Shown in pieces: positions 2,705 through 8,815 of a stretch of DNA of 42,819 nt. The notes below the pieces were generated by a model. The model saw nothing but the letters and a program-made list of their open reading frames with translations, made no database searches and was not told the origin of the DNA. A program made the translations under genes and the position numbers. Source of the stretch: Gemmatimonadota bacterium (GTDB lineage: Bacteria > Gemmatimonadota > Gemmatimonadetes > Longimicrobiales > Gaopeijiaceae); the NCBI GenBank assembly GCA_029262115.1, contig JAJCZZ010000029.1, positions 1 through 42,819 on the forward strand, in the 5' to 3' direction. Numbering within the stretch: position 1 is the stretch's first letter; each line of letters opens with the position of its first letter.

Positions 2705-3121
2705 ATGCTGCCCTTTCCCGTGGATCTCAAACCGGGCGAATCGCCTTACCGGCAGGTCGTGTACGCGGCCACCAAGGCGGTCGTGGCGGGCGACCTCCTA
2801 CCGGGGTCGCCCTTCCCTTCCGTTCGGGTCCTCAGCCAGGCGCTCAAGATCAACCCGAACACCGCCCAGAAGGTCGTGTCCGAGCTGTCCAGGAACGGGA
2901 TCCTCGAGGTCCTCCCCGGTGTGGGCACGGTCGTGGCGGAGTGGGGACCGGGCTCGGAGCGCGACCGATCCCGGCTCCTGACCGACGATCTCGAGCCCGT
3001 TCTGGTGGAGGCACGCCGCCTCGGAATGACGCTGCGGGAGGTCGAGGACGCCGTCTCGGATCGATGGAGCGCCCTCTTCGATTCGGTCGGACCGCGCGCC
3101 GAGCGCAAGGAGCGCGCATGA
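2705..3121 (+). CDS. GntR-family transcriptional regulator, YtrA type
   Basis: 138 residues. An N-terminal winged helix-turn-helix spans about residues 12-78, including PSVRVLSQALKINPNTAQK as the recognition region and the wing GVGTVVAE. A short C-terminal helical tail (about 60 residues) replaces the large effector domain of other GntR groups. This length and layout define the YtrA subgroup, which typically controls adjacent ABC transporters. The stop overlaps the ATPase start as ATGA, so the regulator is the first gene of a three-gene operon and probably binds the palindrome just upstream. The ligand is unknown; YtrA relatives often respond to cell-envelope stress or antibiotics. Confidence 0.88.
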   Translation: MLPFPVDLKPGESPYRQVVYAATKAVVAGDLLPGSPFPSVRVLSQALKINPNTAQKVVSELSRNGILEVLPGVGTVVAEWGPGSERDRSRLLTDDLEPVLVEARRLGMTLREVEDAVSDRWSALFDSVGPRAERKERA

Positions 3122-4044
3122 GCGCGGCGGTTCGTGCCCATGACCTCGTGCACCGGTACGGTCGGACTCGCGCGGTGAACGGCCTCACCTTCGAGGTTCC
3201 CGAAGGTGCGCTGTACGCGCTCCTCGGACCGAACGGGGCCGGCAAGACCACCCTGATGAAGATTCTCCTGGGCCTCCATCCCCCGTCGTCCGGACGGGCG
3301 GAAGTCCTGGGGCGGGACGTCTCGGATCTCACGCACAGCGACCGCCTGCGAATCGGCTACGTGGCGGAGGGGCAGGACCTGCCCGGGTCGATGACCCTGC
3401 GCGGCCTGATCGGCTACCTCGCACCGCTTTACCCGGATTGGGACCATCACCTGGCGTCGGAGTTGGCGCGGCGCTTCCGCCTGGCGCCTGACCAGAAGAT
3501 CAAGAGCATGTCGCGCGGACAACGGATGAAGGTGTCATTGCTGTCCGCCCTGGCCCCACGGCCGAAGCTCCTGATCATGGATGAGCCCTTCACAGGCATG
3601 GACGCCGTGGTCAAGGACGATCTGATCGGGGGTCTGCTGGAACTGGCCGGCAAGGAAGGCTGGTCCGTCCTGCTCTCCTCGCACGACATCGGAGAACTCG
3701 AGATGCTCGCGGACTGGGTCGGCATCATGGACGAGGGCCGCATGGTTCTCTCCGAGCCGATGGAGGTACTCCACGACCGATTCAAGTCGGTCGACATCAT
3801 GCTGAACGGCGGGCCCCTCGTGACCACGGAGGAGCTTCCGCCCGACTGGCTCGGCGCCACCCGATCCGGTCGCCGCCTCCACTTCGTCATCGGAAACCAC
3901 GGCGCACCGGAGTGGGAGCGTGACGTGCGCGGTCGCTTTCCCGAGGCGCATCGGCTGACCGTCCGCGCCGCGTCCCTGCGAGAGGTGTTCGTGGCCATCA
4001 CGAGAGATCGCCAAGCCGACCCTTACCAATTGGAGGCATCCTGA
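3118..4044 (+). CDS. ABC transporter ATP-binding protein
   Basis: 308 residues from the ATG at 3118; the frame is open further upstream, but this start overlaps the GntR stop as ATGA. It shows Walker A GPNGAGKT (Lys43), a Q-loop Gln86, the signature SRGQ at 132-135 (a variant of LSGGQ), Walker B LLIMDEP (Asp155, Glu156) and the switch His189 in SSHD. A roughly 90-residue C-terminal extension follows the ATPase core, as in DrrA/YtrB-type exporters. It powers the membrane subunit encoded next, with which it overlaps by one base (TGATG). The substrate cannot be read from the sequence. Confidence 0.9.
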   Translation: MSAAVRAHDLVHRYGRTRAVNGLTFEVPEGALYALLGPNGAGKTTLMKILLGLHPPSSGRAEVLGRDVSDLTHSDRLRIGYVAEGQDLPGSMTLRGLIGYLAPLYPDWDHHLASELARRFRLAPDQKIKSMSRGQRMKVSLLSALAPRPKLLIMDEPFTGMDAVVKDDLIGGLLELAGKEGWSVLLSSHDIGELEMLADWVGIMDEGRMVLSEPMEVLHDRFKSVDIMLNGGPLVTTEELPPDWLGATRSGRRLHFVIGNHGAPEWERDVRGRFPEAHRLTVRAASLREVFVAITRDRQADPYQLEAS

Positions 4045-5678
4045 TGCGCTGGTCGAGGCAGGTGTGGCACGTAGCAACCAAGGACGTGAGGCAACATGCT
4101 CGAGTCCTGGGGATTGGCGTGGTGGCGGTCGTCATCGATATCGCGCGAACGGCCCACTGGGTTGGCGCGGGAGAGGGCGTCGGACAGGCCTGGCCCCTGG
4201 GGAGCGGACTGCCCGTCGGCTTGAGCGTTCTGGTCGGGCTGCTGGCGACTGCGCTCGTCGTGCAGGCCGACCCCCCATCGACCAGTGACGCCTTCTGGAC
4301 CACCCGCCCGCTGCGGCCGAGCGCGGTGTTTTCCGCCAAGGTGTTGGTCATAGGGGCGTTCGTCCTGGCCATACCGCTCATCGCGCAGGGGGTGCTGCTA
4401 TGGTCGCACGGAGTGGCCGCATCGGAACTCGCCGTACACCTATGGCCCTCGTTCTTTGTCTATGGCGGGATGGTATCGGTCGTGGCAATGATCGCAGGCT
4501 TGACCCCCGACCTACGCACGTTGGCCGTATCGCTCGTGGGATTGCTCGTGGCCTGGGCGATCCTGCAAGAGTGGTCGTGGAGGTTCATCCATGGGATTTC
4601 TTCGTTCTCCCAGCAGTCATCAACCGGGGTGCTCCGAGCAGCGCTCATCCTGTTGGGGAGTGCCGCGGCCCTCGGCGTCCAGTATCGGACGCGGAGGCGC
4701 GGTCGGAGCCTCGTTGTAGCGGCGGCCATGCTCGCGGGGTGGGCGCTCGCTCACACGGTGGTCGCGTCGATGTCCGAGCCATGGGAGGCGCGGGCGGCGA
4801 CGGCGACCGCGGCACCGGAGGCACCGGCGGCGACGGTGACGGTGACGGTGACGGATAGGGTGCAGCTCGCTCAGATCGAGCTCACTCCCTCCACGATGGA
4901 AGCCACCCTCGACCAGCCCTGGAACGCTTGGGGCCGGCTGCTCGTCGACGGTACCGACCCCCGCTACGAGTACCGTGCCGACGTCGTGTGGATCGGATAC
5001 GCGGAGGGCGACGCCCCCGCGACGCGCATGGGCGAGTATCGGAACCTTCTCCTTGTGCCGGCTCAGGTGGCCGGGGTCGGGGACCCGGAGTTGCTGGCCC
5101 CGTTCGAGGAGGAGACCAGCCGCCGGATGCGTCTGGGAACGCTGACCGCAGAACAGGTGGCGGTCATCCAGGCGGGGAGGGCACACCTTGAAGTCGAGAT
5201 CACCGTGGGTATCTATCAGTATCGGCATGCAGGCTCGCTTTCCACCGCCCCCGGGTCGCTAACGCGCGTGGGGGGGAGCCTGTTCCGGACCGGGCGGCAG
5301 ACTGGGCATCCCCTCGACTCGTATCTCCTGCTCCTCGCGGAGCGCAGTGAACGACACCGGGACGCCGACACCCACCCGACCGTCCGGGCCGCCCTGTACG
5401 ACCCCACGACCCACGAGGCCCTTCCTCTCGAAGGCGAGAGCCGTAGCAACAACGGACACCCGATGGTCACGCCGGGATCCAGCGTCAGGGTGCATACCAT
5501 GGCGCTCAACCCGGTGTCGGTCCCAACCGGGACCCCTGGCGGAGGCCCGGCCCTGAGCGACATCGACATTGATGAGCGATTCGCTGAGGTCGTGATCTAC
5601 TCTGGTGCGAGGCTGGGCACGTACCGGGTTCGCCGGGTCATCGACGGGCTACCGCCACGCGTGCCCGACTGGAGGTAG
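4044..5678 (+). CDS. ABC transporter membrane subunit with large extracytoplasmic domain
   Basis: 544 residues. The first ~245 contain about six to seven hydrophobic segments (for example VLGIGVVAVVIDIA, VGLSVLVGLLATALVV, VLVIGAFVLAIPLIAQG) typical of ABC-2-type permeases. An Ala/Thr/Val-rich low-complexity hinge (about residues 250-270) leads to a ~270-residue hydrophilic domain with no visible anchor at its end, presumably outside the cytoplasm. TTGGAGG at 4030-4036 is a good ribosome site. It completes the GntR-ATPase-permease operon. The large soluble domain is unusual for this class and I do not recognise its fold. Confidence 0.75.
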   Translation: MRWSRQVWHVATKDVRQHARVLGIGVVAVVIDIARTAHWVGAGEGVGQAWPLGSGLPVGLSVLVGLLATALVVQADPPSTSDAFWTTRPLRPSAVFSAKVLVIGAFVLAIPLIAQGVLLWSHGVAASELAVHLWPSFFVYGGMVSVVAMIAGLTPDLRTLAVSLVGLLVAWAILQEWSWRFIHGISSFSQQSSTGVLRAALILLGSAAALGVQYRTRRRGRSLVVAAAMLAGWALAHTVVASMSEPWEARAATATAAPEAPAATVTVTVTDRVQLAQIELTPSTMEATLDQPWNAWGRLLVDGTDPRYEYRADVVWIGYAEGDAPATRMGEYRNLLLVPAQVAGVGDPELLAPFEEETSRRMRLGTLTAEQVAVIQAGRAHLEVEITVGIYQYRHAGSLSTAPGSLTRVGGSLFRTGRQTGHPLDSYLLLLAERSERHRDADTHPTVRAALYDPTTHEALPLEGESRSNNGHPMVTPGSSVRVHTMALNPVSVPTGTPGGGPALSDIDIDERFAEVVIYSGARLGTYRVRRVIDGLPPRVPDWR

Positions 5679-5880: not shown

Positions 5881-6480
5881 ATGCGCACACGCACTGCCGC
5901 GCTCGCTCTTCTCGCGGGGTCGCTGGCCGTGGGCGCGCCCGCCTGCTCCTACGCGCAGGAATCATCGGGAGCGAACTTGATTGCCGTGGGTGAGATGGCG
6001 CCTGACTTCGCCCTGCCGGGCGCAACACGGTTCGGGCAGCTGTCCCGCCCCGTGAGCCTTAGCGACTACCGTGGAAAGACCGTAGTGCTGGCGTTCTTCT
6101 ATCGAGTAAGGACGCCTGGCTGAACAGTTCAAATGACAGCGTACCGTGATCAGTACGCAAGCCTCTTCAACGAAGGACGAAACGTCGTCGTCATGGGGAT
6201 TTCGAACGATTCCCCCGCGGAGCTGCACTCCTGGCTCCACGACGCGGATTTCCCCTTCGTGTTCGCGAGTGACGCGGACAACGACGGTGCCACGTATGCC
6301 GCCTTCGGCGGCGGGCTGCGCGCCAACAACATGGTGGACAGCAGGACCGTCATCGTGGTGGGTCCCGACGGCCGGGTGGCCGGTGTCATCCCGCAGTTCC
6401 GACAGGTGGATCCGCAGGCCTACGACGAACTGGCCGAGATCGTGGACCGCGTGACGCCGGAGCCCGAGGAAGAAGGGTAG
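5881..6480 (+). CDS. Exported peroxiredoxin, probable selenoprotein (in-frame UGA at catalytic position)
   Basis: Read through one TGA (6121-6123), this is a 199-residue AhpC/TSA peroxiredoxin of the BCP/PrxQ type. Residues 1-25 form a signal peptide (cleavage near SYA-QE). The thioredoxin-like fold runs from EMAPDFALPG through KTVVLAFFYRVRTPG to DSRTVIVVGPDGRV. The TGA is codon 81 and falls exactly where peroxiredoxins have the peroxidatic Cys (TPGC-T); the frame continues with TVQMTAYRDQYASLF, so no frameshift is needed. The mature protein has no Cys, so Sec81 would be the sole redox residue. A strong ribosome site (GAGGAG, 5870-5875) precedes the ATG. A SECIS-like hairpin follows the UGA. 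It should reduce peroxides in the periplasm using an external reductant. The alternative is a nonsense-mutated Cys codon. Confidence 0.85.
6139..6158 (+). promoter_or_regulatory. Bacterial SECIS-like hairpin
   Basis: Starting 15 bases after the UGA codon, GCGTAC (6139-6144) pairs perfectly with GTACGC (6153-6158) around the 8-base loop CGTGATCA. Known bacterial SECIS elements are short stem-loops just downstream of UGA, within the coding region, with a G among the first two loop bases. Here the G is loop base two, 22 bases after the UGA. The hairpin would recruit SelB with Sec-tRNA. Confidence 0.7.
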
Positions 6481-6720: not shown

Positions 6721-7161
6721 CTACCGGATCTCCCAGAACAGGTAGAGCCCGCGCTCGCCGGACGGGAAGTCGATGATCACGTTCGCGACGCACTCGGCCC
6801 CACATTCGGCGACGTCGGCGAGCGTGAGTTCACGAATGGTCAGCCTCCCTTCCGAGGCGTTCGGAAGCAGAAACTCAGCATTCCCGGCCACAACCACGGA
6901 ATCGCTCCTGCGGACGGCCAGGTCGAACCGGAGGATGTCCGGCCCCCCGACCCGAACCGGCGGCGTCGACTCGTAAGGGCAGACCGCTCCGTCATCGCAC
7001 GGTTCGTTGAAGTCCGCCGGAAGGAACGTCCGGGCGAACCTGGGGCCGCGGACACGAACTTCCAGGTCCGGAGCCGGCGGATTGGAGGCCCGAAGCTGAA
7101 GCGTCGAGACCTTGTCCGCGCATCCGGTGACGGACGCCGACAGCAGGAGTGCTATCGCCAT
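6721..7161 (-). CDS. Small lipoprotein of unknown function
   Basis: 146 residues from the internal ATG at 7161, chosen because it begins a good lipoprotein signal peptide (MAIALLLSASVTGC); the frame is open to 7248. The mature part has two closely spaced Cys pairs (EPCDDGAVCPY and AECGAECVAN) that could form disulfides, and strands typical of a beta-sandwich. No family is recognised. The gene is alone; a MITE (7260-7440) lies directly upstream in its promoter region. Confidence 0.65.
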   Translation of the reverse strand: MAIALLLSASVTGCADKVSTLQLRASNPPAPDLEVRVRGPRFARTFLPADFNEPCDDGAVCPYESTPPVRVGGPDILRFDLAVRRSDSVVVAGNAEFLLPNASEGRLTIRELTLADVAECGAECVANVIIDFPSGERGLYLFWEIR

Positions 7162-7259
7162 GAATCGAAAAAAAGGGTACGCGCTTCGACCTGCAGACAT
7201 CCAAACCGCATGGGCGCGGGACGGCCTTCTCCGACGCGGGGCGGTCACGGCCAGCGTCT

Positions 7260-7441: not shown

Positions 7442-7996
7442 CTAGCTCCCAGCGTGCGCCGTACGGCCGAGAAGCTTCGCCACCTCTCCGACGAGATCCT
7501 GATCGCCACCCGACCCGGTATACACGACCGTCCCGCCAGCGTCCAGTATGACGACCACGGAAGTCGTCGGTGCCTTGTACGCCCGCACGGTCGCACCCTT
7601 CTTGTCCCAGAGGTACGGGTACCCCGGATTGTGCTCTCCCAGATGCCGTTTCACCCGGCGAACCGACTGAGAGACGGCAACGGCGACCGCAACCACATTG
7701 ACCTCGTCGCCGTGCTCCTCCTGAATCCGATCGAGCTGTGGCTGAAGCGCCTCGCAGTTCTCACACCACGTGGCCCAGAACTCGACGAGCGTCGGCTTCC
7801 CCGCCTCCACGTAGTCGAGGAACTGAACCTCGTTGCCGTCGAGGTCCTCAAGCATCGCCGCGGGCGCCTTCGTACCCAGCGGCAGCCCCACTCCTTGCGC
7901 GACAACCGGAGTCGCACCGGCGACGGTCCCCAGCAGTGCGAGACCGGCAATCGATGCCGCCGGCAGCAGTCTGCGTAACAGATTCGTGGAACTCAT
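7442..7996 (-). CDS. TlpA-like thioredoxin-fold protein, exported
   Basis: 184 residues with a signal peptide (cleavage near VVAQ, residue 34) and a redoxin/TlpA fold: entry strand ATWCENC with the redox pair Cys78-Cys81, and the cis-Pro region KAPTTSVVVILD. Such proteins reduce or exchange disulfides in the periplasm, for example during cytochrome c maturation. Its ATG overlaps the stop of the DsbD-like gene (ATGA), so DsbD is the likely electron donor. The stop codon TAG is formed right at the edge of the MITE, so the original C-terminus may have been altered, though the domain looks complete. Confidence 0.88.
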   Translation of the reverse strand: MSSTNLLRRLLPAASIAGLALLGTVAGATPVVAQGVGLPLGTKAPAAMLEDLDGNEVQFLDYVEAGKPTLVEFWATWCENCEALQPQLDRIQEEHGDEVNVVAVAVAVSQSVRRVKRHLGEHNPGYPYLWDKKGATVRAYKAPTTSVVVILDAGGTVVYTGSGGDQDLVGEVAKLLGRTAHAGS

Positions 7997-8724
7997 AGGT
8001 TATAGCCCGCTTGAACGAAGTAGTATTCGGCCATGATCAGCATCACGAGGGCCGCAAAGCGCTTGGCCCAGACCATCCACTTACCCGAACGCGGAAGCAT
8101 GCTGATAGTTCCTGAAAAGATACCCACGAGAATGAGCAGAGTTGTCATTCCCATGGAGAAAACGAACAGGTAGACGAAGCCCATCAGGCCGGCCTGAGTC
8201 GCCGCGACCCATGTGAGAACCACCGCGAAGGCCGGCGCGCCACACGGCGCGGCCACCACGCCCGAGGCGGCGCCCATCACGAAAACCGCCCCGTACGACC
8301 CTCCCTCCCGCTCGGCGGCCCACGCCATCAGGCGCCGGGGGACCGGCACCGGGAGCACGTCCAGCATGCTGAGGGCGAACAGCACGAGCATGTTGCCGAT
8401 GGCCAGAAGAGCCCACGGGCTCGCGCTCACCGTGCCGAACAGGGTGCCGGTGATGCCCGCCAGCGCACCGAGGAAAGCGTACAGCATGGCCATCCCCACC
8501 GCGTAGGTCAGCGTGAGGGCCACCGTCCGGCTCTTGGGCTGCCCCTCCCGCGACGTTCCAGCGATCACCGAGGCCGTGATGGGGATCATCGGATAGACAC
8601 AGGGCGTGAGGCTCGTGAGCACCCCTGCACCGAAGAGGGTCACGAGCGCGAGCGCGGGGCTGTTGCTCAGCGCTTCGGACAGCCCACCCTCGGCGGACTG
8701 GAGAAAGGCGATGGCAAAGTTCAT
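7993..8724 (-). CDS. DsbD/CcdA-type transmembrane thiol electron transporter
   Basis: 243 residues with eight or so hydrophobic helices. The two membrane cysteines of DsbD are in their signature contexts: SLTPCVYPMIP (Cys42) and AAPCGAPAF (Cys161). It lacks the periplasmic alpha and gamma domains of E. coli DsbD, so it is the minimal membrane core, which passes electrons from cytoplasmic thioredoxin to periplasmic partners. The overlapping tlpA-like gene supplies a periplasmic acceptor; the nearby Sec peroxiredoxin is another possible client. A GTG start at 8745 is also open; I prefer the ATG at 8724. It is divergent from the S9 peptidase gene. Confidence 0.88.
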   Translation of the reverse strand: MNFAIAFLQSAEGGLSEALSNSPALALVTLFGAGVLTSLTPCVYPMIPITASVIAGTSREGQPKSRTVALTLTYAVGMAMLYAFLGALAGITGTLFGTVSASPWALLAIGNMLVLFALSMLDVLPVPVPRRLMAWAAEREGGSYGAVFVMGAASGVVAAPCGAPAFAVVLTWVAATQAGLMGFVYLFVFSMGMTTLLILVGIFSGTISMLPRSGKWMVWAKRFAALVMLIMAEYYFVQAGYNL

Positions 8725-8815
8725 GTTCACAAGGTGACCCTTCACGGCGTGCCAGCAAGCTCGTTGGCCTCCGTGTCTGATTTAGGGGTGTCCACGACGT
8801 ATCCGGAGGAGTCCG

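Follow-up and report, generated by a model that had tools for sequence, protein, structure and literature searches.

The gene at positions 5,881..6,480 on the forward strand of the window (the whole 42,819-nt stretch of Gemmatimonadota DNA that was analysed) is, as judged by every computational test available, a selenoprotein gene. Its product is very probably a BCP/PrxQ-AhpE-like peroxiredoxin that is exported and whose sole redox residue would be a selenocysteine (Sec81) inserted through an in-frame UGA, SelB, tRNA-Sec and a downstream hairpin, and whose reductant would most likely be a neighbouring TlpA-CcdA pair. The computational evidence comprises an exchange of UGA and Cys codons among homologues, the selenocysteine machinery of the genome, a SECIS under constraint, the modelled fold with its catalytic residues, the lack of a second Cys, and conserved neighbouring genes.

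An in-frame UGA at the peroxidatic position

The reading frame extends from the ATG at 5,881 to the TAG at 6,478–6,480 and contains a single internal stop, the TGA at 6,121..6,123 (codon 81, forward strand), giving 199 residues once this codon is read through as Sec. This bears out the sequence-only reading, which had described two open stretches in one frame split only by the TGA; under translation table 11 the same frame yields two ORFs, the second from the ATG at 6,133. The Pfam family AhpC-TSA (PF00578) matches residues 36–167, on both sides of the TGA (E = 1.4e-23, 83.6 bits against a cut-off of 26), and comparison of homologous codons places codon 81 at the peroxidatic position (RVRTPGU), so the flanking peptide is indeed a peroxiredoxin active-site region, as had been proposed. 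The Pro of the TPG highlighted in that proposal varies within the family, for which the conserved core around Sec is R-T-x-G-U-T-x-Q-M-x-A-Y-R-D. Screening with a composition filter revealed no other convincing TGA-interrupted gene in the window.

A TGA at codon 81 with conserved protein on either side was found initially in 55 distinct sequences and later in 101 distinct genes, indicating that the in-frame TGA is not a chance event. In a class-wide search of 295 genomes, a relative of some kind was detected in 289, and about 150 of the matches listed contained exactly one TGA, at 47–78% identity; across the class, the TGA persists to ~44% identity. Codon 81 was read at 138 loci with UGA and 9 with Cys, some genomes being represented twice, from two collections, and was always TGA or TGC/TGT, never another codon; UGA and Cys, the two states for which homologues were to be checked, are the only ones found. 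Were the UGA a true stop, the gene would be a pseudogene or a split gene, as the two ORFs under table 11 would have it. However, both halves are conserved in the 101 distinct genes down to the same ~44% identity with the TGA kept, the fold requires both halves, and the exchange of TGA for Cys is exact, making this explanation exceedingly improbable. Decay of the downstream frame in homologues, which the sequence-only reading had named as a contrary sign, was looked for, and the frame was found to be conserved instead.

In a quick phylogenetic tree, in which the deep branches are weak, the Sec genes group into a single large cluster, and the state changes three times in all. Cys is carried by early-branching Gemmatimonadaceae forms and by all relatives found from other phyla, and the few UGA loci labelled as other phyla are probably mislabelled bins. 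Two Cys forms lie inside the Sec cluster (L146 in genome G002 and L147 in G077), a placement that is as expected for Sec-to-Cys reversions. Genome G077 lacks selA, selD and any selB above the cut-off, while G002 retains selA, selB and selD, and its gene preserves a hairpin remnant with three changes, resembling the remnant SECIS described in PMC1794560. Some genomes contain two UGA paralogues (L148 in G014, L172 and L039 in G120, and L158/L159 in G182).

Selenocysteine machinery and the downstream hairpin

The source genome (5.45 Mb, 110 contigs, 96% complete) was searched for selA, selB, selD and a tRNA-Sec with anticodon UCA, the check suggested with the original assignment, and all four are present. 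The selA match (430 bits) is over the cut-off and has no internal stop, selB was identified, and the tRNA-Sec (97 nt) has the anticodon UCA. The selD gene (382 bits) has one in-frame UGA of its own (SHGAGUACK), which means that the organism can make its own selenophosphate synthetase only by decoding UGA as Sec. A generic GTPase search of the genome returned 19 matches, none with an internal TGA; together with the uninterrupted selA, this indicates that UGA is otherwise a stop in this genome. Read-through by itself is no proof of Sec, and a near-cognate or altered tRNA might instead insert Trp or Cys at the UGA. The dedicated tRNA-Sec, SelA, SelB and SelD, the lack of TGA inside selA and the GTPase matches, and a hairpin that tracks the Sec machinery argue against such decoding, which we consider very improbable. 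The assignment of the UGA to selenocysteine is strongly supported by the machinery, the TGA/Cys exchange and the SECIS hairpin, and Sec would accordingly be the residue expected at codon 81.

Two further UGA genes were observed in the source genome. In most of the class, selD contains a UGA (SHGAGUACK; source copy G000:C17:3609-4535, locus L125; others L178–L206). In G022, G059, G071, G083, G097 and G103, the selD matches do not include the N-terminal segment with Sec and lie inside open frames of ~750–860 aa, perhaps fusion proteins without a UGA. A second selenoprotein candidate (G000:C5:103665-103913, locus L015) is Prx-like, contains the UxxC sequence YRGHWUPWC, and has a hairpin of 6 bp ~21 nt past its UGA. 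The idea of one SECIS common to all selenoproteins of the genome was rejected, as selD and this second Prx-like gene have different hairpins.

The candidate SECIS of the peroxiredoxin gene (6,139..6,158, forward strand; GCGUAC-CGUGAUCA-GUACGC) consists of a 6-bp stem and an 8-nt loop with G at loop position 2, and begins 15 nt after the UGA. Published bSECIS criteria (PMC13188914) specify an upper stem of 4–16 bp, a loop of 3–9 nt with a G in its first two positions, a distance of 16–37 nt from the UGA and an MFE of at most -7.5; the hairpin falls within all of these (6 bp, 8 nt, loop starting CG, 21 nt from UGA to loop, -8.5 kcal/mol with flanks). Its folding is modest, with -7.0 kcal/mol for the bare 20-mer and a z of -0.8 against shuffles for the single-sequence fold of a 56-nt stretch, and Rfam at the gathering threshold gave no match in the window. 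A comparative codon analysis was therefore needed to assess the SECIS.

In the 101 distinct UGA genes the hairpin is identical or one to two bases off, synonymous positions included: codons +6 to +11 (Ala-Tyr-Arg-Asp-Gln-Tyr) are frozen, while most codons farther off vary freely. Compared with their use elsewhere in the same genes, Ala is GCG in 100/100 cases (45% elsewhere), the first Tyr TAC in 101/101 (80%), Arg CGT in 98/101 (13%), Asp GAT in 98/101 (24%), Gln CAG in 99/99 (83%) and the second Tyr TAC in 100/101 (80%). Among the UGA genes looked at, eight hairpin variants have one base change and one has two; in three of the variants the loop CGU has become CGG, the sole alternative under the bSECIS rule G[G|U], and one is a stem C to U change that preserves a G-U pair. 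In Cys homologues that have SYRDQYA or SYRDKYA here, SYRD is mostly encoded as TCG TAT CGC GAC, which preserves the residues but not the hairpin.

The exact 20-mer is present in 175 of the 295 genomes, compared with none for a reversed control string. There is one copy per genome save in G120 and G182, which have two each, both in paralogues of the Sec-peroxiredoxin gene, and in every case looked at it lies inside this gene at the fixed distance from the UGA. Genomes with the 20-mer contain selA in 166/175 cases, versus 58/120 without it (Fisher p = 1.2e-20; this and the binomial p-values take no account of shared ancestry). All nine 20-mer genomes without selA have tRNA-Sec and eight have selB, suggesting that these are probably incomplete assemblies.

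Since pairing alone would permit other codons (for example GCA with TAT), the letters as well as the hairpin shape seem to be under selection. This strictness, beyond what structure alone requires, could also reflect a DNA operator or other nucleic-acid signal, rather than or besides a SECIS: the 20-mer is a perfect inverted repeat (GCGTAC-N8-GTACGC), and the selD hairpin of the same genomes (CTCGG-N5-CCGAG) is not frozen likewise, its stem being kept while the loop and synonymous positions vary. An operator is nevertheless improbable, given that the 20-mer occurs essentially once per genome, in-gene and at its fixed spacing, is lost in Cys homologues, and tolerates a loop change that fits the bSECIS rule.

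Predicted export and fold, and the neighbouring TlpA-CcdA genes

Residues 1–25 (5,881..5,955, forward strand) were recognized by eye as a predicted Sec/SPase I signal peptide with cleavage at MRTRTAALALLAGSLAVGAPACSYA/Q, and the N-termini of relatives, also inspected by eye, display the same A-x-A/Q pattern (e.g. ...GAPVDAGAQ/D), consistent with export of the peroxiredoxin. This signal peptide holds the one remaining Cys (residue 22), and the mature protein would thus contain no Cys, as the sequence-only reading had stated; likewise, no further (resolving) Cys was found in 147 mature sequences of the family. By sequence, the protein is therefore a 1-Sec enzyme, in which an internal selenenylsulfide is impossible and reduction must come from outside.

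Modelling of the mature protein with AlphaFold2 (mean pLDDT 95, pTM 0.90) places residue 81 at the opening of the first long helix. In a structural comparison of this model, the closest fold is that of the 1-Cys peroxiredoxin AhpE from M. tuberculosis (Z 23), followed by BCP proteins. The catalytic Thr at -3 (Thr78) is present in 59/63 members, with Ser in 2, and the distal catalytic Arg155 in 63/63. The classical PxxxTxxC motif has Pro at -7, a position occupied by Tyr74 in this protein; of the 63 members, 52 have Phe or Tyr there and 11 have Pro. The active site is thus not quite classical, and the protein is best described as a peroxiredoxin-fold enzyme with a variant motif. A Met four residues past Sec (window 6,133–6,135) is found in 62/63 of the family, in Cys forms as well; in outgroups the residue is mostly Ala. 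The loss of the motif Pro, together with a reductant known by inference only, leaves some room for a thiol-disulfide or other redox partner instead of a peroxidase. The catalytic Thr and Arg are kept, there is no CxxC or UxxC motif, and the best structural match is a 1-Cys peroxiredoxin; such a role is accordingly unlikely, and peroxide would be the expected substrate.

Downstream of the peroxiredoxin gene and tail-to-tail with it are genes for a TlpA/ResA-like exported thioredoxin (WCENC; 7,442..7,996, reverse strand) and a CcdA/DsbD-type transmembrane thiol electron carrier (7,993..8,745, reverse strand), which overlap by 4 bases and probably form one operon. Among 49 close relatives with enough flank, the TlpA-like gene is a neighbour in 39 and the CcdA gene in 38; the pair is downstream in 38 and never upstream. 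More distant relatives, and 10 of the 49 close ones, did not show the pair next to the gene. The upstream GntR/ABC/membrane operon (2,705–5,678), the small protein at 6,721–7,248 and the S9 peptidase were not seen next to the gene in relatives and were therefore not counted as part of the system. CcdA-type proteins hand electrons across the membrane to periplasmic thioredoxins, which makes the TlpA-CcdA pair a natural reductant, the TlpA-like thioredoxin being the likely periplasmic reductant and CcdA the likely electron source.

We propose a mechanism in which SelB and tRNA-Sec would insert Sec81 at the UGA, guided by the hairpin. In the periplasm, the selenolate of Sec81, activated by Thr78 and Arg155, would reduce peroxide and be converted to a selenenic acid. 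An external thiol, most probably that of the neighbouring TlpA-like thioredoxin, would then reduce this acid, and CcdA would keep the thioredoxin reduced across the membrane.

Relation to known peroxiredoxins and significance

Sec-containing peroxiredoxins (Prx, COG1225/PF00578, TxxU) are exemplified by PrxU of Eubacterium acidaminophilum (PMC9312934, PMC13188914), and the Sargasso Sea set contains 43 Prx genes (PMC1088965). Like PrxU, the Gemmatimonadota protein has an AhpC/TSA fold, a putative Sec at the TxxU peroxidatic position and a bacterial SECIS directly downstream. It differs in scoring 46.3 bits against NF040737, below the curated cut-off of 270, and in having a predicted signal peptide, no second Cys, almost invariant SECIS letters and a class-wide distribution in Gemmatimonadota. 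Since TxxU Sec-peroxiredoxins are an established bacterial selenoprotein family, the earlier description of the protein as notable needs tempering. What appears new is an exported 1-Sec branch of this known kind, in which Sec would be the single redox residue, its class-wide spread in Gemmatimonadota and the unusually fixed SECIS. No description of Gemmatimonadota selenoproteins was found in the freely accessible literature covered, and such sequences may already be present, labelled 'Prx', in earlier marine metagenome sets.

By sequence, the closest proteins are the BCP/PrxQ thiol peroxidases (PRK09437; PDB 2cx4, 3hjp, 5epf), which share the TxxC core, the RD helix and the catalytic Arg; here Sec would replace Cys, the protein is predicted to be exported, and most members have lost the motif Pro. 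Many outgroup BCP sequences have a second Cys five positions further along (CTxQAC), which is absent here. The modelled likeness to AhpE (rmsd 1.7 over 152 residues) extends to the single redox residue, at 24% sequence identity. AhpE is a Cys enzyme without a signal peptide. In Caulobacter, Cho et al. (2012; cited in PMC4491210) reportedly described a pathway of ScsB, a TlpA-like thioredoxin and a cell-envelope peroxiredoxin, which is taken here as a lead only. This pathway reportedly likewise combines a membrane thiol carrier, a TlpA-like thioredoxin and an exported peroxiredoxin, but is Cys-based and uses ScsB, whereas the present system would be Sec-based with CcdA, linked by gene neighbourhood.

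Because a standard gene caller breaks such genes in two at the UGA, an enzyme present in ~60% of the sampled genomes of the class would be missed. Many Gemmatimonadota are aerobes. Published surveys tie Sec use to low oxygen (PMC1794560), and against this background a class-wide Sec peroxidase in the oxidizing envelope is worth testing. A sequence-locked SECIS, in which SelB reads letters of the stem and loop and not just their shape, combined with an exported 1-Sec peroxidase fed by CcdA-TlpA, might constitute a selenium-based defence of the envelope against peroxide, of ancient standing within the class, a suggestion we make tentatively and hold at somewhat less than even chance. The almost invariant peroxiredoxin SECIS beside the variable selD SECIS in the same genomes provides a natural test of which features of the RNA SelB reads.
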